DNA of 10,834 nt from Poronia punctata (taxonomy: Eukaryota > Ascomycota > Sordariomycetes > Xylariales > Xylariaceae): contig MU401939.1 of the NCBI GenBank assembly GCA_022579005.1, forward strand, positions 3,986-14,819. Direction: 5' to 3'. Numbering within the stretch: the first letter of the stretch is position 1; each line of letters opens with the position of its first letter. Of this stretch, positions 1-10,834 are shown in pieces. The position numbers and the translations under genes were made by a program. The notes under the pieces were generated by a model. That model was given only the letters and a program-made list of their open reading frames with translations. It ran no database searches and was not told the DNA's origin.

Positions 1-22
1 GCCGCCCCCCCCCCCCCCCCCG

Positions 23-73
<51 letters not shown>
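1..73. repeat. Poly-C homopolymer tract
   Basis: The first 73 bases are C except for G at positions 1, 4 and 22, leaving an uninterrupted run of 51 C from 23 to 73. The other strand is a poly-G run, which in principle could form G-quadruplex or i-motif structures. The tract begins at the window edge and ends abruptly in ordinary mixed sequence about 360 bp upstream of the TATA box. It may be a real simple repeat or an assembly or sequencing artefact, and the sequence alone cannot separate these. Confidence 0.9.
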
Positions 74-75
<2 letters not shown>

Positions 76-430
76 GGTGTTGAGAGCCTTGCATGCTGCC
101 ACTACGCCGGCCTCACAGAATGCGAACAACGAGAACAACAAAGCCGAGCAATCAAGGTGTTTACGAAAACATCAACTGCGCTAGAACCTTCATAGGATAA
201 GGAATGGTGGTCACGTGACAAGCGACTGGACCGTGATCTTGGAAAGTTAGCTGCAGATCACAGGACAACAATAAAACCCGTAGGAACTGTACTAAAAGAG
301 GCGTGAATAGCCGGACGCAAGGCCGAGCTCACTCTGATCTAGGCAGAAAGAGGCCTAAAACTGGTTTGGGGGCAAGACCTTGTGGTCCGTTGCCAAGAGA
401 GATGATGACTTATACATAGGATGACGCAGG
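74..430 (+). promoter_or_regulatory. Upstream intergenic region of the VIT-vWA gene
   Basis: This is 357 bases of balanced composition between the poly-C tract and the TATA box. I see no credible coding region or RNA gene on either strand. It holds the 10-bp CACGTG palindrome listed separately and a 9-bp repeat, CAAGGTGTT, at 73-81 and 153-161. It is most simply read as the upstream control region of the downstream gene, because nothing else in the window could use it. Confidence 0.55.
210..219. promoter_or_regulatory. Perfect 10-bp palindrome with CACGTG core (E-box/CDEI-like)
   Basis: GTCACGTGAC is its own reverse complement. CACGTG is the core bound by fungal bHLH factors of the Cbf1/Pho4/USF type, and RTCACRTG is the Cbf1/CDEI consensus, which is met on both strands. 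It lies about 210 bp upstream of the TATA box, a plausible distance for an upstream activating site. Binding is inferred from the motif only. A specific 10-bp palindrome is unlikely at random in this short region, but a functional site is not proven. Confidence 0.45.
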
Positions 431-438
431 TATAAAAG
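431..438 (+). promoter_or_regulatory. TATA box
   Basis: TATAAAAG is a good match to the eukaryotic TATA box. It is followed by a pyrimidine-rich stretch (about 441-490), a frequent arrangement around fungal transcription starts. The start codon is 96 bases downstream of the box. With the usual spacing of 25-35 bases, transcription would start near 460-470, around AACACAC, giving a 5' leader of about 65-75 bases with no upstream ATG. Confidence 0.65.
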
Positions 439-459
439 GCGTCCTCCCCCCCTGCCCCT

Positions 460-533
460 TAACACACTTGCCTTCCCAATCCTTACCCCTCACACAGAAA
501 CCAAGCTCATTAGGCAAAGACACCCCAATCATA
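460..533 (+). promoter_or_regulatory. Probable 5' leader and start-codon context
   Basis: This CT- and CA-rich leader has no ATG before the one at 534, whose context ATAATGG has A at -3 and G at +4, favourable for initiation. The reading frame is open further upstream to a TTG at 468, which would add 22 residues, but TTG is not an expected start in a fungal nuclear gene and lies about where transcription should begin. Starting at 534 also places the histone-like ARTKQTAR exactly behind the initiator Met, which independently supports that start. Confidence 0.6.
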
Positions 534-560
534 ATGGCTCGCACCAAACAGACGGCTCGG
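534..560 (+). other. Histone H3 N-terminus mimic (H3 residues 1-8)
   Basis: The codons give Met plus ARTKQTAR, identical to the first eight residues of mature histone H3. Ala at position 2 should allow Met removal by methionine aminopeptidase, exposing a free Ala as in real H3. H3K4 readers (many PHD fingers) and writers recognise this A1-R2-T3-K4 geometry. The match stops at H3 K9: the next residues are S-L-T-D rather than K-S-T-G. Identity is read directly from the sequence; modification or reader binding is inferred. Confidence 0.85.
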
Positions 561-3203
561 TCCCTTACCGACTACTGTAGTCCACAAGTGGGTTGCTGGC
601 ATCCTGTCGACGATTCGGATAATTCCGCTTGCCGGCACTACCTCCCCATGTCGGCTGTCCAAGTCCACACCGTCATCAAGGACGTTGCCTCGCGTACCAC
701 TATAACTCAGTCTTTCACCAACACAACGAGCGAGCACTTGGAGAATATGGTCTATTCGTTCCCGGGCTTCAGTGGCATCGCCATCGTCTCCTTTTCGGCT
801 ACTATTGGTGACGTCAAGATCACTGGAGTGGTGAAGGAGAAGAGAGAAGCACGCCGCGAGTTCGAACAGGCTGTCGCGCAGAACAAAGCGGCTGCCCTCA
901 TGGAGCAGCTACCCCAAGCGTCGGATGTCTTCACCACCCATATCGGCAACGTACCGGCAGGAAGCAGTGTTGTGGTCGAGCTCACCTATGTGGCTGAATT
1001 GAATTATGACGCTGAATATGATGGCATACGTCTAATGATACCATCTAGTGTTGCACCTCGCTTTGGGGACTACGACCCTCCAAACTTTCTCATTACTTCC
1101 GGCAATGCCCTCGTTTTGGATGGGATGCACATTAGCATAGATGTGGAAACTCCCGAAGGGTTCCCCATTCACGCCATCCAGTCTCCCAGTCACGAAATCA
1201 CGCTCAACCTAGGACGCACAACCTCTATGCCTCTTGAGACTTCCTTGCCTCACCGTGCCTCTGCGACATTATCACTTAAGCCCGTGACGCTGGACAAAGA
1301 CTTTGTCGCCATAGTCAAGATTGCTAACGGCAATGCGCCCAAAGCCCTATTGGAGACACATGCCACCATTCCGAAACAGCGAGCGTTGATGGTAACTCTC
1401 GTTCCCAAGTTTGATTTGCCACCTAAGCCTAGCGAGGTTGTCTTTGTTCTCGATCGGTCGGGAAGCATGCGTGGCAAAATGCAGCTGGTGACGCAGGCAA
1501 TGACCACGATGCTCAAATCGCTCCGGGTCGGCATCAAATTCAACATCTGTTCCTTTGGGGACCACTTTTCCTTCCTTTGGCCACACAGCAGTCCGTATAA
1601 CGAAGAGACGCTCGAAGAGGCCTTGAAGCACGTGGAAAACCTGGATTCGAACTATGGCGGGACCCGTATACTGGAACCGGTCCAAGCCACCCTCTCCCAG
1701 CGCTTTTCGGATTTGCCACTTAACGTTATTCTGCTTACCGATGGCCAGATCTGGAACCAAGACCAATTGTTCAAGGCGATCCGCGAGGCTTCTCAGAATG
1801 ACCGAGCCAGATTCTTCGCGCTCGGAATCGGTCACGGCACCTCTACCGCCCTCGTGGAGGGCATCGCTGCCGAAGGCAAGGGAATAAGCCAGTTTGTCAC
1901 TAACGGTGAAACAATGGACAAGAAGATGGTTCGGCTCCTCAAGTGTGCCTTGATGCCACACGTGGAGGACATTTGTCTTGATGTGAAATACAGAAGGGAC
2001 GACGAAGAGTACGAAATCATCGAAGCCGAGGAAGCGTCAAAGGTAACTGTTACTTTGCCGGTGCGACAGAAACCCGAGGGGGCTCTGAGGCCTGTCTTGT
2101 CATTTTTTGACAAGGACATGAGAGATGAAACGGAAGAGGAAAAGACCGATGGAGACAAGAACGACGGAGACCGTAGTGACAGGTTCGCTTATCTGCCCGC
2201 GGTGTCGGGACCAGCAGTTCTTCAAGCGCCGTTCCGACTACCTCCACTCTATCCCGTTTCACGAAGCACGACGTACTTGCTGCTAGACCCGAGCACATTT
2301 TGCTCCACGCCGGAATCCGTCATATTTAGAGCTTCCTCCAACGGCGTCCCTATCGAGTTGGAGATTCAGGTAGACGATGTTGGCAAAGGGGAAACGGTCC
2401 ACGCCCTGGCCGCGAAGAAGGCCGTCTCGGAACTAGACAAGGGACATGGTTGGCTCAGCGGTGCTGTTGACAGGGAGGCTGGTGTCGCCCTCAAGACGAA
2501 ATACCCAAGTCTATGGGATGAAATGGTGCAGCGGGAGGCTGTCCGTCTCGGTCTTCAATATCAGATCGCGGGCAAGTGGTGCTCGTACATTGCGGTTGAA
2601 GGAAACAAATTGTATGAGACTACTAAATACACTGGCCGGGCCCCACGGAGACAGCTTGCTTCAAAGGCCTGTCGGCGGTCTGTTCCTTCTAGCTCTAGAC
2701 CAAAGAGACAGAGACGCCGCAGGGCACCTCTCGGGGAATCGCCGAGGCGAAGTCCGCGCCTCCAAGCAAAGGCGAAAGCTCAAGAGGCATCGCTAGGTTC
2801 TCCGACTGTGCCCTCTAACACACATCCTATTGAGGCAAAGCGAACTATGACGGAGCCATGTGTGACAGTGCTTGCTGCAGTAGAGAACTCTACTGTCGCG
2901 CAACTATCTATCACGGAGAGGATGTACACACTTATTCGGCTTCAGAGATTCGATGGATCTTGGGAATGGCAGCAGTCCTTGCTTGACATTGCAGGTGTGA
3001 CAGATTCGAATGGACAGTTACCTATTCAGCCGAATGCTATCGGCGCTACAACATTGGCCGTGGCTTTCTTTCGCACTCGAGCAGCACTTGAAGTAGGATC
3101 CTGGGAACTTGTTGCTGAGAAGGCGGTTGACTGGCTGGCTGCGCAGAATGTAAATGGGGAGGCTGAGATTAAGACGATTTCTGAATTGCTTGTTTCGATC
3201 TAG
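534..3203 (+). CDS. VIT and vWA domain protein carrying split histone H3-tail-like sequences
   Basis: This is an intron-free gene of 889 residues from the ATG at 534 to the TAG at 3201-3203. Domains in order are: (1) residues 1-9, MARTKQTAR, identical to the histone H3 N-terminus; (2) a VIT domain at about 37-170, with the family pattern VASRTTITQSFTN, a YSFP motif, VKEKREARREFEQA and DVFTTHIGNVPAG; (3) a vWA domain at about 300-475 with an intact MIDAS metal site: DRSGS (Asp307, Ser309, Ser311), Thr377 in GGTRI and Asp403 in LLTDG; (4) an acidic linker near 526-550; (5) the conserved post-vWA region at about 575-690, with HALAAKKAVSEL and LGLQYQIAGKWCSYIAVE; (6) an H3-like segment at 700-720; (7) a basic, NLS-like run at 723-744; (8) a C-terminal module at about 795-870, LIRLQRFDGSW through AEKAVDWLAAQ, as in VWA5A/PARP4-type proteins. 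I see no signal peptide or membrane segment. VIT-vWA proteins are thought to be protein-interaction scaffolds, and the fungal ones lack a settled function. The H3-like parts and basic run suggest a nuclear, chromatin-associated role (inference). The gene is confident; the function is not. Confidence 0.93.
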   Translation: MARTKQTARSLTDYCSPQVGCWHPVDDSDNSACRHYLPMSAVQVHTVIKDVASRTTITQSFTNTTSEHLENMVYSFPGFSGIAIVSFSATIGDVKITGVVKEKREARREFEQAVAQNKAAALMEQLPQASDVFTTHIGNVPAGSSVVVELTYVAELNYDAEYDGIRLMIPSSVAPRFGDYDPPNFLITSGNALVLDGMHISIDVETPEGFPIHAIQSPSHEITLNLGRTTSMPLETSLPHRASATLSLKPVTLDKDFVAIVKIANGNAPKALLETHATIPKQRALMVTLVPKFDLPPKPSEVVFVLDRSGSMRGKMQLVTQAMTTMLKSLRVGIKFNICSFGDHFSFLWPHSSPYNEETLEEALKHVENLDSNYGGTRILEPVQATLSQRFSDLPLNVILLTDGQIWNQDQLFKAIREASQNDRARFFALGIGHGTSTALVEGIAAEGKGISQFVTNGETMDKKMVRLLKCALMPHVEDICLDVKYRRDDEEYEIIEAEEASKVTVTLPVRQKPEGALRPVLSFFDKDMRDETEEEKTDGDKNDGDRSDRFAYLPAVSGPAVLQAPFRLPPLYPVSRSTTYLLLDPSTFCSTPESVIFRASSNGVPIELEIQVDDVGKGETVHALAAKKAVSELDKGHGWLSGAVDREAGVALKTKYPSLWDEMVQREAVRLGLQYQIAGKWCSYIAVEGNKLYETTKYTGRAPRRQLASKACRRSVPSSSRPKRQRRRRAPLGESPRRSPRLQAKAKAQEASLGSPTVPSNTHPIEAKRTMTEPCVTVLAAVENSTVAQLSITERMYTLIRLQRFDGSWEWQQSLLDIAGVTDSNGQLPIQPNAIGATTLAVAFFRTRAALEVGSWELVAEKAVDWLAAQNVNGEAEIKTISELLVSI
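2631..2693 (+). other. Second histone H3-tail-like segment (H3 residues 11-32)
   Basis: Residues 700-720 read TG-RAPRRQLASKA-CRRSVPSS, against H3 [22 protein letters not shown]. One Gly is missing and the differences are K14R, K18R, A25C, K27R, A29V and T32S, with QLASKA (H3 19-24) unchanged. All three changed lysines became arginine, so charge is kept while acetylation or lysine methylation is precluded. K23 and S28 equivalents remain (Lys711, Ser716). The segment follows the post-vWA region directly, in a linker before the C-terminal module. The similarity is far beyond that of a generic basic linker. Confidence 0.85.
2700..2765 (+). other. Basic NLS-like and SPRRSPR segment
   Basis: Residues 723-730 are PKRQRRRR, a strong monopartite nuclear-localisation-like cluster, and residues 737-742 are PRRSPR within SPRRSPR. 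The SPRR/SPR units resemble the S/TPKK motifs of linker histones and some DNA-binding tails, which prefer the minor groove of AT-rich DNA. They follow the H3-like piece without a break. Nuclear import and DNA contact are inferences from composition. Confidence 0.5.
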
Positions 3204-3323
3204 AGGTAGAGTGCCCTAGTTTATATAGTAGGCAAAGAAAATATGTTAAAAGCAACGACTAAGAGCAAGACTTACACAGTTACTTACACAGCTAACTATT
3301 AAGCAATATAAGCTAGAACTTTA
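3204..3323 (+). other. 3' flank of the VIT-vWA gene
   Basis: These 120 bases separate the stop codon from the telomere-like units. They are already AT-leaning but still contain CA, TC and CC dinucleotides, so they do not share the depletion seen further on. A 12-bp unit, ACTTACACAG plus two bases, is present twice in tandem at 3270-3293. A-rich AAGAAAATA at about 3236-3244 could serve in 3' end formation, but no clear polyadenylation signal can be assigned. Confidence 0.45.
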
Positions 3324-3340
3324 TTAACCCTAACCCTATA
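3324..3340. repeat. Interstitial telomere-like units (CCCTAA)
   Basis: TTAACCCTAACCCTATA contains two CCCTAA/CCCTAT units, the complement of the TTAGGG telomere repeat used by most filamentous fungi. It sits at the step between ordinary sequence and the AT-rich block. Two units can occur by chance in a large genome and cannot be called a true telomere. The position on the border is what makes it notable: it could be an interstitial scar of an old telomere or break repair, or a binding site for Rap1/Tbf1/Teb1-type factors. Confidence 0.5.
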
Positions 3341-3993
3341 TTATAACTTATTTATTTATGCACTGCTTTTTTACCGGTATATATATATATTTAGTTTAGT
3401 ATACCTTTATAACTTAAATATTTTTTATATATAGCCTTTTTATATTTTTTATTTATTTTAATATAATATATAATATTTAAAATATATTTTTAATTATTAT
3501 TAATAATTAAAGTATATTATTAATAAATACTTTTATATTTATTATTATATATAATATTTATTATTAAATCTTTTTAATATATTTTAGTTTAACTTTAAAC
3601 TTTAAGCTTATTTATTATTAACTATATTAAATTTATAAAATTATTTTTATAATATTTTTTTATAATTAGCTTAATTTTTTATTTTATTACTAGTATATTT
3701 AGTATTTTTTTAATTGCTATAAATATATATTAGTTTATTTATAACTATTAGTATATAAAAGTTATAAAGATTATATAATTTTTTTAAGTATTATATTGCT
3801 TTTAAATACTAAATAATTTTATTGTTATTAAAAGAAAAAAAGATAATAATAACTTGCTATGCTTTATAAATAAGTAATAAGCTTAAAGTTTTACTTTTAT
3901 ATTATTTTAAGCGTTACTACTACTATAATTTCATTTAATTTACTTATAATATTTTATTTTATTAATTTTTATTAACCTTTTTAAAGTTTTTAT

Positions 3994-4736
3994 TTATTAG
4001 AATTTCTTTTAATATTTTTACTTTTATTAACTATATTAAAGCTATTAAAACGCAAATATTTTATAAATATAAATATTTAGTTTTTAATATATTAGTTTTA
4101 AATTATATTAAACTTACTTTATTAAAAAAGTATATATATAGTATATATATATAGTATATATATATAGTATATAATTAGTACATAAAAAATATGCGTTTTT
4201 TATATATTAAATATATAATAAGTATATGTTTTTTTATATTGCTAATAAGTTTAAATTATAATATAAATCTTTATAGCTATATAAAATTTATTATAAAAGT
4301 TTTTATAACTTTTTCTTTTTATTAATTAAGTTAATATAGTACTATTAATAATAATATATTATATTTATATTTATTTTAGCTAAACTAATACTAATTAGTA
4401 GTTAAATTAGCAACTATAAAAAAGCAAGGTTTAAAAATAAAAACTATTATTATATTTACTTTTTACTTAATTTAAAGTTGCTTTAGCTTTATATTGCTTT
4501 TAAAACTTACTATATTTAAATAAGTAATAAATAAAAAACCTAATTTAAATTATTATATAACTACTTAAAAAAATAAAATAAATAAAAAAAGCTATATTAA
4601 ATTATAGTAAATGTTTTATAAGTTCTATACTAATAAAATAAAAAATAGTAAGCATTTTTATTACTTTTAACTTATAGCTAATTTAAAAACTAATTAGCAT
4701 TAACTTATAATAGCATTATTATTATATAATTTTAAT
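3994..4736 (+). repeat. Direct repeat copy A (~743 bp)
   Basis: This copy aligns over its whole length with 4911-5635. Long shared blocks include AAGCAAGGTTTAAAAATAAA (4421 onward in A, 5321 onward in B), TTAAAGTTGCTTTAGCTTTA and CTAATTTAAAAACTAATTAG. Most differences are C/T or G/A. Its 5' end is more degraded than copy B: where B has CCCTTTTAATACCC, A has TTCTTTTAATATTT. It also contains an expanded TA-rich array. It could be a mutated LTR or part of a tandemly duplicated element; no coding content is visible. Confidence 0.8.
4130..4175 (+). repeat. GTATATATATATA short tandem array
   Basis: Units of 11-13 bp beginning with G follow each other from 4130: one 11-bp unit, two identical 13-bp units at 4141-4153 and 4154-4166, then a decayed GTATATAAT. 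Copy B of the surrounding repeat has fewer units at the matching place, so the array probably expanded by slippage after duplication. Confidence 0.6.
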
Positions 4737-4910
4737 ATAATAAATAATAGGTTTACTTTAAAAATAACTAAGTAGTTACTATTAAAGTAAAAAAGCGTTT
4801 AGTATATATTAGCAAATTAAGCAATAATTAATTTAATATTAAAAAAATAAGCAAAGCTTATTTTAAAAAATATAATATATATAGCGCATTAATTAAAAAA
4901 TTAACTATGT

Positions 4911-5635
4911 ATATTAAAATCCCTTTTAATACCCTTAACCTTATTAACTACATTAAAACTATTAAAACGAAAATATCTTATAAACATAAATATTTGGTTT
5001 TTTACGTATTAGTTAGACTTACTTTATTAGAAAAGTATATGCGCAGTGTATATATATAGTATATAACTAGTATATAAGGAGTACGCGTCTTTTATATATT
5101 AAATATATAGGGTATACGTATTTTTCTTATATTATTAATAGGTTTTAATTAATTGTAAACTTTTATAGCTATATAAAAACTTGCTAAAAAAAGTCCTTAT
5201 AACTTTTTTTCTTTTTAATTAATTAAGTTAATATAGTACTATAAATAATAACGTATTATAGTTATATTTATTTCTAGCTAAACTAATATTAATTAGTAGT
5301 TAAATTAATAATTATAAAAAAGCAAGGTTTAAAAATAAAAACTATTATTATACTTACTTTTTACTTAGTTTAAAGTTGCTTTAGCTTTATATTGCTTTTA
5401 ATACTTATTATATTTAAGTAAGTAATAAATAAAAAATTTAATTTAAATTGTTATATAACTACTTAAAAAAATAAAGTAAGCAAAAAAAGCATATGCTAAA
5501 TTATAATAAGCGTTTTATAGGTTATATACTAATAAGATAAAAAATAGTAAATATTTTTATTACTTTTAACTTATAGCTAATTTAAAAACTAATTAGCATT
5601 AATTTATAATAGTATTATTATTATATAACTTTAAT
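4911..5635 (+). repeat. Direct repeat copy B (~725 bp)
   Basis: This is the partner of 3994-4736 in the same orientation, starting about 175 bp after copy A ends. Its first ~200 bases keep more G and C than almost any other part of the block (for example ACCCTTAACC, GCGCAGTG and GGAGTACGCGTC), so it preserves more of the ancestral sequence there. Elsewhere copy A has the C and copy B the T (CTAATACTAATT versus CTAATATTAATT), so both copies mutated independently. A weaker resemblance may continue past 5635 (AAAAAAATAAGCA in both flanks), suggesting a repeat unit nearer 0.9 kb. Confidence 0.8.
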
Positions 5636-8600
5636 TTTTTTTTAAATTTTTTTTTAAAAAACTAACTATATTAAAAATTTTAGTATATATAGTAGTTAGT
5701 ACTACTTTACTTTAAAAACGCTTTTAATAACAACTTAAATTAAGTTAAATTTTTTAAAAAAATAAGCATAGCTATTTATTTATTAAAAAAGCATGTTATT
5801 TTTAAAAAGTAAAGCGTAAAAACACTTAACTTTAAAATATTAGCAAAAAACAAGCTAAATATATATATGTTATATAAAGTAACTAAATATATATTATAAC
5901 GTAATTAGTATACATGCTAGTTACGCTTTATATTATAAGGTAGCTATAAAACTAAAAAGGGCTAGCTTGATTTTTATTTTTATATATATAGCTATTATTT
6001 TTGCGTTGCTTTTTAGACTCAAATACTTAGCTATTTATTATATACTTAATATACTAAGTTATATTTTTTAAAATACTTTTATAAAGTTATAATTAATATA
6101 AAGCTTTTAAAACCTAGTTAATATGTTTACTTTAGCTAAACCTCTTTTAGTATAAAGTTAAAATAATCTTTAAAAATTTTTAATTTTATTATAATAGTAA
6201 TTTTGCTTAAATATAAAACTTATAAGAGCTTTTTTTTATAAAGCAAACTATATATAAAAAATAAAAAGCTAAAAATTAATAATACGCTTATATATATAAA
6301 CGCGCTTAAGCTAAAAATATAATAAGTTTTTATAATTACTAATAATTTAATTAAAAAATAAAAATAAAATACTAGCTTACTTTAAACTTTAAAAACTATA
6401 AAAATTAGCTAAAAGCTTTAGTATAAAAACAACATATTATAAAAAAGGTTTAAAAAATAGCTAAGCTATTATAGTTTAAAACTAAGTAGTAAAAGCTATA
6501 CAAATTAAGCTATAAAGCTAAAACTATAAAATATAACTTAGCTAGCTTACTATTTTTAGTTTAATAAAGCTATAAGATTATAACTTAAAAAATACTTTTA
6601 ATAGTAATTTAAAAAAATTAAAAATATAAAGAAACTAAAAAGAACTAAAAAACAAATAGTTAAAAAATTAAAAAAACTAAAAAATAAGTAGCTAAAAAAC
6701 TAAAAAACTAAAAAACTAAAAAAGTTTAAATATTATAATAAATAAAAAAAGGTAGCGTATTTTATAAAGTATAAAAAAGGTTTATAATACTTAAAGTTAT
6801 ATATATATAAGCTAGTAATTAAAAGCTAAAATAACTTAAAAATTAAATTTTTAATAAAAACTTTAAAAATTAACAGCTTGCTTAAGTAAAAACTTTTAAA
6901 ATTTTAATTAAATATAAATACTAGCTAATACTTTTTTATTATATTTTTTTTTTAGTTAATATTAGCTTTTTAATATATTTAAACTTTATTATTTTAGCTT
7001 ACGTTTTTTTATATAGTTTTTTTATTTAATACGTTACTTTTTATAAAACTTTATAGTTTTATAAATAAAAACTATAATTTAAGCTGCTACTTTATATTAC
7101 TTAAACTTTTTACTTTAAAATAATACTAAAATAATTTATTAAACTTTATTTTTACTTAAAAAGTAATATTTTTAACTATTTACTTATACTTAGCTAGCTT
7201 TATTTTATTTTTTATTATTAACTTAAAACTTAAAGCTTTTAAATTAATTAAAACTTTTACTTTACTATTACTTTTTAGCTAAAAATTTATTTTAACTTTT
7301 ATTTTTAGTATTTTAATTATAAGCTATAAAAACTTAATTTTAATTTTTATTAACTATTTTGCTACTTTTTTATATAACCTTTACGTTTTTTAGCAATATA
7401 TAACTTATTTTAACTTTTTAAAGCGTTTTAACTTTTTTTTTAATAGTACTAAAGCAATAAATTAGTTTAAAAAAGTTTTTTATTACTTTAATAATTATTA
7501 TATAACTTTAAAAGCTTATATTTAACTATTGCTTTAATATACTTTAACTTATAAAGTTTATAAATAATTAATTTTTTTTAAAAAAAATTATATAAACTAA
7601 AATATTGCTTATAGCGCTATTAAGCATTATTTTTATTTAAATAATTTTTAATAAAAATCTTTTACTATTGCTACACTTTATAACTATAAAAAAATATTTT
7701 AATTAAATAATATTAAAAGCTTATATAAATACTTTTAAAAATGTTATTTTTTTTATTAAAATATTAAAGCTTATAATAAGCTATATTTTAATAATATTAT
7801 AGTTTAAAGCCTTTTATAACAAATATTTAACTTTATAATTTAAGCTATTTTTTTTTATTAACTAAAATTTAGTAACTTTAAATAACTTACTTATAAAGAC
7901 CTTTATAATAAGCTTAACTTTTAAGCAATAAATAAATTTTGCTTTTAAAAATATTAAAAATAAAGTAAAAAAAATCTTAGCTTATTAAAAAAAAAATTTA
8001 AGCTTTTTAAAAAACTTAATAAGCTTTTTTACTTATACTTTATTAAAGCTATTATAACTTAGCTTAAAAATTAATAAAATGCTTAATAAGCAAAAAGTAT
8101 AGCTATAGTTAATAGCTAGCTAATAACTATTATAAAATAAAAGCTTATTACTATTATAAACAACTTTACTTTACGTTTTTAAAAAATTAAAATTATAATA
8201 AAATAGCTAAAAGTTATTATAAAAAAATAATAAAAAATAATAAATTAACTAGCTTTTTAGCTTTTTATTAATTATAATTAATAAAGTATAAAAATTATAA
8301 TATATTTAATAAACTAGTAAAGTAGTTATAGTAAATAAAAATAAAAAAGTTATTAAAGTTATTTAAATTAAAAAGTACTTAGTTATAAGTATTAAATATA
8401 TTTAAAAAACTTTTATTTATAATAAAACTATTTAAAAGTATATAACTTTAATAAAAATAAAATTATATATTTTAATAATTAGTAGCACTTTAAAAAAAAA
8501 CGCTTGCTTAAACATATTAAATATATTATTTTACTTAGTAATATTATTATATTTAATTAAAAATATAAAAATATTAAAATTAAAATATTATACTATATTT

Positions 8601-10834
8601 AAAAAAATAACTTAGCTAATAATTATAACTTTTACTTTTTAGTATATTATAAACTTAAAAAGTATAATTTAATTTTATAAAATATAGCTTTTAAAGCAAT
8701 ATAATAATTATAAATAAAATATATTTAACTAATATAAGTAGCTAATGCTTAAAATTAACAAAACGCTTTAGCTATAAAAAACGTTATTAATATTAAACCT
8801 TTTACTTATATTAGTAATATAAATATAGTTAAAGCTTTGCGTTAAAATAATAACTTATTTATATATAAAAATAAAAGCTATATTTATATAAACTAAACTT
8901 AAAATTTTATTTATATTATTACTATTAACTTTAATAATATAAAAGTTATAAAAAAAGTTAAAAAAAAATAATAATAAAATAGCTATTAAAATGTTTACTA
9001 TTAATTAATATAAACTACTTTTTATATAAGTTTTTTTTTATTAAAAGCTTATAAAAGTTTTTGCTTAAAAAAATAAAAATATTTTATTATAATTAAATAT
9101 TTAATTAGTTGCTTTAAAAGTTAAAATATTTAATTTGCTTTTTACTATTATAAAAAATATATTTAAAAATAAAAAAGCTAATATAAAATAAGCGCTTAAT
9201 ATTTATATAAAAGCTTAATAGTTATAAAATATTAAAGTTAATAAGCTACTTTTAAAAAAAGTTAATATTATATTTAAAAATATAATTTTTAAAGTACTAA
9301 GCTATACTAACGTATTAATTTATTAAATTAGCTATATTGTTTAAAACGTTATAATTAAAAGTAAAAAAACTATTTATATAGCGCTTAAAAATATTAAATA
9401 CTAATTTAGCTAAAAAAGTAAAAATTAAATTTTAATTAATATTATAAACTTTAGTAAGCTACTTAGCTTATAGCTTAATATAATTACGCTTTTAAAATTA
9501 ACTAATTACTTTATAGCTTTAATTTAATAAACTAAATTTTAGCTTATTAAAAATATATTATAATAAATAACTAATATAAGTAATTATTTTTATATTAATA
9601 TTATAATAGTTAGTTTTAATATTTTATAAAATAATATTTAACTAAGTACTTAAAGCTTTAATTTAAAGCTAACCTTATTTTAAATATTTTTTATAGCTTT
9701 AAAGTAGTATATAGTTATTAACTATATTTAAACTTGCTTTAAAATTATTATTATTATAAGCATAAAAAAGCAAGGCAAGCTTATTATAAAAGTTATTAAT
9801 ACTAGTATATAAGCTAGCTTTATTATTAAAATATATATTTTAAATTATACTTTACTAGTTTAATAAATTAGTTTAACTTAAAAAAGCTATAGTAATAACG
9901 TTAATAAAGTTAGCTATATTAATATTATTAAAATTAAAGTATAGCTTACTAAGTAAAGCGTTAAATTTTTATTATATATTGTTTTAAAGCAATATACTTT
10001 ATTTTTTTTACTTTTAAATATAAATTTTATTATTAAAACAAATATGTTTTTATATTATTAAAATAATTACTTTATATATAATATATAGTTTAAAAAAATT
10101 AAAAATTATAATTTTAGTAGTATTTATTAAAAACTAGTTTTTATTATAATTATTTAAAGTTATTAATATATTAAAAAACTAGCTACTATTTACTTATTTT
10201 TAAAGCTAGTAAATAATATAATAAAGCTTTATTAAATAAGTATTAAAAAAGTAGCTAATAGTAATAATAATAATAAGTTTAGCTTATTTTGTTATAATTA
10301 AAATATTACTTTAGTTATAAATTATAATATTACTTTTTATAGTATACTTTAAAAAGAAATCTTTAATATAGTGCTTAATATTAAAAAAAGCTTACTTTTA
10401 TATATTACTAGCTTTAGCTTTATTTATTTTAAAAGTATTATACTATTTAGTTATAAGTATAATATTAATTTTAATTTTTTTAATATATTTTTAATTAATT
10501 TAGCTAATAATAAAATAATATAAGTTATACTATATAATAATGCTTTTATAAATATTTTTTATAATACTACTTAAAAAGTTTATTATAAAGCTTAATAAAT
10601 TAACATTGCTATTGCTAAAAAAGTAAATTAATTAAGCGCTTTAATTAAGTTATTTAATATTTTTATTATATATAAAAGCAAAGCTAAAAAAGTTTATTTT
10701 TTTAATAATATTTTACTAAACAAAATAACTTTTTTAAGCATATATAATTAAAAAAAAAAGCTATTAAAAAAAAAGTTATAAACATTAAAAATAAAACTTA
10801 GTTATAATAAAAAAGTATTTATAAAAATATTTAG
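5636..10834. other. Degenerate AT-rich sequence without recognisable genes
   Basis: About 5.2 kb follows the repeat pair with no supported gene, RNA or intact mobile element. It is probably several mutated transposons, but I could not recognise a reverse transcriptase, integrase or DDE transposase motif through the mutations. Slightly less degraded patches occur around 5900-6030 (AAAAAGGGCTAGCTTGA, GACTCAAATAC). The lysine-codon-like stretch at 6630-6725 is listed separately. No end of the block is reached in the window. Confidence 0.7.
6692..6723 (+). repeat. Four perfect 8-bp CTAAAAAA tandem units
   Basis: CTAAAAAA occurs four times head to tail, preceded from about 6640 by looser copies (ACTAAAAAGAACTAAAAAAC). 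The wider 6630-6725 stretch is almost only A with scattered CT. It may be a simple repeat made by slippage. It could also be the C-to-T-mutated remains of a Lys/Glu-rich coding stretch, as found at the C-termini of many fungal pogo/Fot1-type transposases; that second reading is only a guess. Confidence 0.6.

Follow-up and report, generated by a model that had tools for sequence, protein, structure and literature searches.

An intronless gene on a 14.8-kb contig of the ascomycete Poronia punctata (MU401939.1) encodes a VIT-vWA protein that carries two copies of histone H3 tail sequence, one at its N-terminus and one in a disordered linker ahead of its C-terminal domain. Both copies are conserved in related fungi, and relatives carry copies of other widely bound peptides in the same linker, which suggests that the linker with its mimics is a built-in docking or bait strip. 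The window is the whole stretch of DNA analysed, 10,834 nucleotides long; it contains this single gene (positions 534-3203, forward strand), followed by an AT-rich tract. An initial annotation, made from the DNA letters, had reported the H3 similarity; that observation is confirmed and extended here, its interpretation is partly supported, and the protein probably serves as a decoy or docking bait, though proof is still wanting.

Two segments of the H3 tail in one protein

534..3203, forward strand: intronless VIT-vWA gene of the VWA5A/PARP4 type, 889 amino acids, stop codon at 3201-3203 (open reading frame list, Pfam and full-length homologues)
537..560, forward strand: codons 2-9, ARTKQTAR, identical to H3 1-8, at the protein N-terminus (translation and comparison with H3)
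2634..2693, forward strand: internal H3-like epitope GRAPRRQLASKACRRSVPSS, residues 701-720, corresponding to H3 13-32 with 14 of 20 residues identical (alignment)

Translation of 534-3203, which yielded the stretches MARTKQTARSLT and TGRAPRRQLASKACRRSVPSS, bears out the reported start M-ARTKQTAR as H3 1-8, and the internal near-copy of H3 was likewise recovered, at residues 701-720. The gene end, earlier placed at 2693, is corrected to 3203, so that the missing remainder of the linker and a C-terminal domain are now included. By an established rule, the initiator methionine before alanine is expected to be removed.

Histone H3 was matched by the whole protein at about residues 700-731 in a phmmer search of PDB (best E 0.014). 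The internal match scored 82; the 2,520 shuffles made from the C-terminal parts of homologues went no higher than 53, and thus never attained the score of 55 at which an internal H3-like segment was called. In exact-pattern searches of the 45-Mb genome, ARTKQTA proved to be encoded at two places only, the H3 gene and the window gene, and the same was true of PRxQLAxKA. Chance or low-complexity similarity, for which the richness of the segments in alanine, lysine and arginine could speak, is refuted by the shuffles, by the confinement of the epitopes to these two genes and by the conservation among orthologues described below; its probability is virtually nil, and the initial annotation, too, had judged chance to be very unlikely. 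At the level of sequence the protein is a histone mimic, with H3 similarity beyond chance.

Comparison with the host H3 gene showed 4 of 8 codons changed in the N-terminal copy, every change being silent, and 5 identical, 9 silently changed and 6 replacing codons among the 20 of the internal copy. This divergence rules out a recent H3 duplication or a misassembly, and the copy is accordingly old and has been maintained at the protein level.

Conservation of both copies among homologues

The homologue set comprised the best 120 of 1084, including the window protein, and six extra proteins from H3-directed searches, which were chosen for H3 and are biased. The closest named homologues among those listed belong to Xylaria, Nemania and related genera, with identities of 53-59% for the top 16. 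The internal H3-like segment is present in 42 of the 120 listed proteins (41 of 119 without the window protein) and in all six extras, one call, that in P0115 (score 59), being doubtful by eye. An N-terminal ARTKQTAR matching at least 6 of 8 residues is found in 21 of the 120, again counting the window protein, with the full 8 of 8 in 15 of those. The unit H3 15-31 occurs in tandem repeats in P0006, P0012, P0016, P0018, P0020 and P0196.

On a FastTree tree built from the cores of the 126 proteins, some of whose rows are truncated gene models, the window protein belongs to a clade of 21 members, of which all carry the internal segment and 19 the N-terminal copy (at least 6 of 8). Over the whole tree the internal segment changed state at least 14 times and the N-terminal copy 5 times, gain and loss being indistinguishable. 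At a distance from the window clade on the tree, H3-like N-termini were seen as well, in P0054 (6 of 8) and more weakly in P0079 and P0086 (5 of 8), and P0059 starts MRTSQTARG. A gene-model artefact in the relatives was considered and rejected, as 19 of the 21 clade members have a common N-terminus; the different starts of P0013 and P0047 may be due to annotation.

Within the clade, the commonest residue at a position has an average frequency of 0.88 over residues 2-9 and 0.40 over residues 10-17, and 0.87 over residues 703-720, compared with 0.70 over 690-700 and 0.19 over 722-790, a range that consists in large part of residues unique to the window protein. The VIT and vWA domains reach 0.81 and 0.82. 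Both H3 copies are kept as well as the folded domains while their flanks drift, a sequence pattern indicating that the mimic is conserved by selection at the protein level. The initial annotation had asked whether orthologues keep both segments; in the window clade 19 of 21 members do, and this check thus came out in favour of its proposal.

These values bear on the idea that a fragment of an H3 gene was captured, for example by a transposon, into a disordered linker where it has no function. It is known that hAT transposons capture and amplify H3 in other fungi (PMC6710886), the linker varies freely, and the gene adjoins an AT-rich tract resembling the product of repeat-induced point mutation (RIP). 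Epitopes as conserved as folded domains amid drifting flanks nevertheless largely refute a neutral relic, and the silent codon divergence, the placing of the second epitope exactly at the N-terminus and the tandem units also count against it, making it highly improbable.

The initial annotation had further described the two segments as independent matches, which is doubtful: P0196, P0123 and P0243 carry H3 ~2-31 nearly unchanged as a single piece within the linker, giving that doubt modest support, and P0104 and P0026 carry it there in more altered form. The placing of H3 1-8 was compared in the 34 of the 42 listed H3-bearing proteins that have a recognisable N-terminus, selected by a crude filter that also removed some seemingly intact ones. 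Proteins with the N-terminal copy (n=21) have on average 0.67 of 8 residues of H3 1-8 matched internally, and those without it (n=13) 2.00 of 8, a contrast with a permutation p of 0.012, uncorrected for kinship. Including the extras gives 0.67 against 2.44 (p 0.0015), which is too strong; of the extras, at least P0123 and P0139 are fragments without an N-terminus. These figures give no more than a hint that H3 1-8 sits either inside the linker or at the N-terminus, as halves of one tail.

Residues retained in the internal copy

Residue frequencies taken over 48 internal copies define a conserved core corresponding to H3 15-31. Well-kept residues include P16 (98%), R17 (96%), Q19 (94%), L20 (96%), A21 (94%) and S22 (96%), together with A24 (92%), R26 (85%), S28 (83%) and P30 (92%). 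The lysines are less kept, with K14 identical in 33%, K18 in 71%, K23 in 69% and K27 in 65%, and A25 (69%), A29 (71%) and S31 (73%) are kept no better than the lysines. In the window protein the positions of K14, K18 and K27 are all arginine, and the K14 position is alanine in 10 and methionine in 8 of the 48 copies. In the N-terminal copy, the K4 position is retained with a frequency of 0.90 among the 21 clade members.

Because the lysines are replaced more often than most of their neighbours, the internal copy is poorly explained as a target of lysine modification. The residue pattern favours a docking epitope recognised by peptide shape, which is probably read through its arginine, glutamine, leucine, alanine, serine and proline residues and not through modified lysines.

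Protein architecture

651..989, forward strand: VIT domain, residues 40-152 (Pfam PF08487, E 1.9e-32)
1434..1895, forward strand: vWA domain, residues 301-454 (Pfam PF13768, E 2.8e-29)
2610..2867, forward strand: disordered linker carrying the mimic peptides, residues 693-778 (predicted local distance difference test, pLDDT, below 50)
2901..3200, forward strand: C-terminal folded helical domain, residues 790-889, equivalent in position to the C-terminal domain (CTD) of VWA5A and Dictyostelium Vwa1 (predicted structure; PMC10539598)

The AlphaFold2 model, computed with 48 sequences, has a mean pLDDT of 79.5, with a folded core and a C-terminal domain folded from about residue 790. Residues 1-15 and 693-778 are predicted to be disordered, and both H3 copies lie inside these stretches. 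The vWA domain contains DRSGS at residues 307-311, a motif of the MIDAS (metal ion-dependent adhesion site) type, in which D307, S309 and S311 are invariant over 48 rows. PARP4 is the best sequence match among solved structures, over the VIT-vWA core (E 1.1e-22, PDB phmmer), and the top three foldseek matches are inter-alpha-inhibitor (inter-alpha-trypsin) heavy chain 1. The Pfam scan of the window protein returned no PARP family and no histone fold (PF00125). A search for the vault major protein gave no match, but none in any control genome either, and is hence uninformative.

The order of its parts, VIT and then vWA, with a disordered loop leading to a folded C-terminal domain, makes the protein an intracellular VIT-vWFA protein of the VWA5A type. 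It resembles VWA5A and Dictyostelium Vwa1 (clade B2, PMC10539598) in the VIT and vWA domains, the CTD and the disordered loop between core and CTD, the likeness of the C-terminal domain resting on its position after that loop; H3 mimics like those of the window protein are not mentioned in that article, the word 'histone' having no occurrence in its main text. PARP4 (vault PARP) is alike over the VIT-vWA core, and the window protein differs from it in the absence of a PARP domain by Pfam.

The initial annotation had offered decoy, recruiter or substrate as roles. A decoy or recruiter is a reasonable proposal, given a genuine H3 mimicry that orthologues keep at both sites and that lies exposed in disordered stretches, whereas the part of the proposal concerning a lysine-mark substrate fits the internal copy poorly.

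Basic and HMGN-like motifs beside the internal copy

2703..2723, forward strand: basic cluster KRQRRRR, residues 724-730, resembling a classical nuclear localisation signal (NLS) (read from the translation)
2745..2765, forward strand: RRSPRLQ, residues 738-744, resembling the HMGN nucleosome-binding core RRSARLSA (motif comparison)

An RRSARL-like motif, at any position, occurs in 15 of the 21 clade members, mostly as RRSARLQ, and in none of the 105 other proteins. The window form has proline in place of alanine, and the last two residues of the RRSARLSA octapeptide are unmatched in both the window protein and the clade. HMGN and Dsup bind the nucleosome acidic patch through a motif of the RRSARLSA type, and Dsup is described as the sole case outside vertebrates of a protein binding nucleosomes via an HMGN-type motif (PMC12487698); binding by the clade proteins would be a prediction from motif likeness.

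In an account near that of the initial annotation, the HMGN-like motif would dock on the acidic patch and the H3 epitopes would serve as extra tails, drawing readers or writers of the H3K4/PHD type. The distribution of the motif, the precedent of HMGN and Dsup, the retention of the N-terminal K4 and the adjacent basic cluster are all consistent with such a chromatin recruiter. However, the motif is missing in 6 of the 21 clade members and altered by proline in the window protein, conservation of the lysines in the internal copy is poor, and the ribosomal P-stalk, RNA polymerase II (Pol II) and SNARE mimics of relatives, described below, have no obvious nucleosome role, so that chromatin recruitment is considered unlikely, if worth keeping in mind.

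The captured H3 or H4 tail could instead simply be an import signal for Kap123 and Kapbeta2. Kap123, and Kapbeta2 as well, bind the tails of H4 and H3 (residues 1-28) as NLSs (PMC5677370), and H3 mimics, H4 mimics and FG repeats are all found in the VIT-vWA family. K14R barely affected import by the H3 NLS in that work, so the arginine at this position in the window protein is not decisive. Yet the Kap123 contacts K14 and K23 (PMC5677370) are kept in only 33% and 69% of internal copies, a classical basic cluster already adjoins the internal copy in the window protein, and the N-terminal H3 1-8 copy and the P-stalk, Pol II and R-SNARE mimics would be left unexplained. An import signal is decidedly unlikely as the whole account.

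Other hub-peptide mimics in the linker and H3 tails elsewhere

A panel of hand-picked hub peptides was compared with 125 linkers (one of the 126 being too short), a match being a score at least 8 above all 200 shuffles. The H3 tail was matched in 48 linkers, the P-stalk end in 10, the Pol II C-terminal heptads (Pol II CTD) in 5, and the H4 tail and R-SNARE in 2 each, and the H2A tail in none of the 125. At least one kind of peptide was present in 58 of the 125, and two or three kinds in 8. Reversed queries as controls gave 4 matches for H3, 1 for the P-stalk, 5 for the Pol II CTD and none for H4 or R-SNARE, the Pol II CTD control being uninformative because the heptads are near-palindromic. 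In a first panel the best scores of ubiquitin (54, null maximum 44), tubulin (40, null maximum 37) and the Hsp70 end (39, null maximum 36) were unconvincing by eye and were set aside. Independent support came from Pfam, applied to 79 of the 126 proteins in sets of 44 and 35: FG repeats were identified in 9 proteins of the first and 6 of the second, and the set of 35 also yielded Synaptobrevin, Ribosomal_60s and the Rpb1 repeat in 2 proteins each.

The Entomortierella VIT-vWA protein P0111 has an R-SNARE-like motif in its linker (residues ~824-893; panel score 84, null maximum 46), with synaptobrevins found by PDB phmmer at weak E values (0.003 and worse), and P0100 has a motif that is less complete by eye (59, null maximum 38). 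Within the linkers of P0118 (residues 761-837; P1/P2 and then Pol II CTD by PDB phmmer, E again weak at 0.003 and worse) and P0106 (~829-876), heptads like those of the Pol II CTD come immediately after a P-stalk-like end. For P0121 there was no hub peptide among 12 PDB matches, though the panel had scored the P-stalk at 47 against a null maximum of 35. On these sequence comparisons the H3 mimic belongs to a broader group of hub-peptide copies in the VIT-vWA linker, a pattern that lies beyond the view of a single sequence.

A more far-reaching proposal would treat fungal VIT-vWA proteins as multi-bait sensors, the linker being an interchangeable string of hub-peptide copies (H3 and H4 tails, P-stalk end, Pol II CTD, R-SNARE and FG repeats) in which the H3 epitopes of the window protein form one cartridge; a foreign attacker that grips or cuts the bait would free the C-terminal domain and trigger a response. 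Ribosome-inactivating proteins are known to dock on the P-stalk end (PMC5086656), which fits a bait against foreign proteins and does not show one. This sensor role is rated as rather unlikely.

H3-only searches, which gave 20 proteins in one case and the best 120 of 350 in another, returned mostly histones or histone fusions. Among them were the H3-Gcn5 two-hybrid baits pDG1 and pDG2 (P0124, P0125), which resemble the window protein in fusing an H3 tail to a non-histone protein and differ from it as man-made yeast vectors. A reverse transcriptase (RT)-like fungal family, consisting of P0122, P0126 (from Clonostachys), P0137 (from Cosmosporella) and P0202, at 50-88% mutual identity, contains a near-complete H3 tail followed by an acidic stretch, its label deriving from a sub-threshold RVT_1 Pfam match in P0122 alone (E 0.011). 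The FG-rich proteins P0195, P0204 and P0233 combine H3-tail copies with Pol II CTD-like heptads (FG and heptads by eye), and P0204 and P0233 have an H4-tail-like GKGGKGLGKGG stretch (by eye). Two proteins that are non-fungal or of unassigned origin also belong here: several H3-like segments occur in P0193 (684 amino acids, with a SET domain) and several H3-tail segments in P0194 from Oikopleura dioica, which starts MARTGQTARKST. H3 tails are thus found within unrelated non-histone families, and were apparently captured on more than one occasion.

Gene start and flanking sequence

431..438, forward strand: TATA-like box TATAAAAG, about 100 nucleotides ahead of the start codon (read from the sequence)

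The ATG at 534 is the earliest in frame, the frame being open from a TTG at 468 without an intervening ATG, and its context has A at -3 and G at +4. A VIT-family search of the host genome gave one match, the window gene.

The AT-rich tract (3300-10834) has 13.1% GC, compared with 54% over 1-3220, and dinucleotide ratios that are RIP-like (TpA/ApT 1.49; (CpA+TpG)/(ApC+GpT) 0.23). Diverged repeats are visible by eye in it, for example around 4080-4700 and 5000-5600. Positions 1-73 of the window are a poly-C-rich run at its edge, and the contig reads N upstream.

Proposed docking by the linker and its implications

The explanation proposed here, to which about even odds are given, is that the disordered N-terminus and linker have become docking sites, with peptides that copy the H3 tail and would act on H3-tail binders. 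H3 1-8 would be displayed at the free N-terminus and H3 ~15-31 in the linker, beside the RRSPRLQ motif and the basic cluster. The mimic peptides could then compete for H3-tail-binding proteins, or recruit them, and occupation of the linker might alter how the VIT-vWA core is coupled to the C-terminal domain. Dictyostelium Vwa1 has a disordered loop at the corresponding place, and it has been proposed that its CTD keeps the protein autoinhibited (PMC10539598).

Several points weigh against this explanation. By the threshold used, 78 of the 120 listed proteins have no internal copy, and many internal copies lack H3 1-12. The sample is the best 120 of 1084 homologues, so the frequencies hold for the listed set alone, and the patchy presence would fit repeated loss as well as repeated gain. 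Autoinhibition is itself a proposal, and would here be carried over from an amoeba.

Non-histone proteins presenting a piece of a histone tail have precedents in the hepatitis delta virus (HDV) antigen and SARS-CoV-2 ORF8, the latter proposed and disputed as a histone mimic; G9a and influenza NS1 are further examples. These mimics are short motifs around one lysine, whereas the window protein has a true N-terminal H3 1-8 together with about 17 internal residues, belongs to a host gene family and has less conserved internal lysines. The WRKY domain of plant RRS1, an integrated decoy, similarly reproduces a cellular target within a protein of several domains. The window protein differs in bearing short peptides and not a domain, and a sensor role is here only proposed. 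No report of H3-tail mimics in VIT-vWA proteins was found among the open-access articles listed, which is weak evidence of absence.

If the docking explanation is true, a host gene family would display H3-tail epitopes outside chromatin, with a bearing on the titration of H3-tail readers, and H3-tail antibodies and peptide baits could hit a non-histone protein in these fungi. The presence in one linker, in different species, of copies of H3, H4, the P-stalk, the Pol II CTD and R-SNARE, a pattern of which no description was found, points to a common logic as bait, scaffold or sensor, and offers a direct route to testing the function of fungal VWA5A-type proteins.

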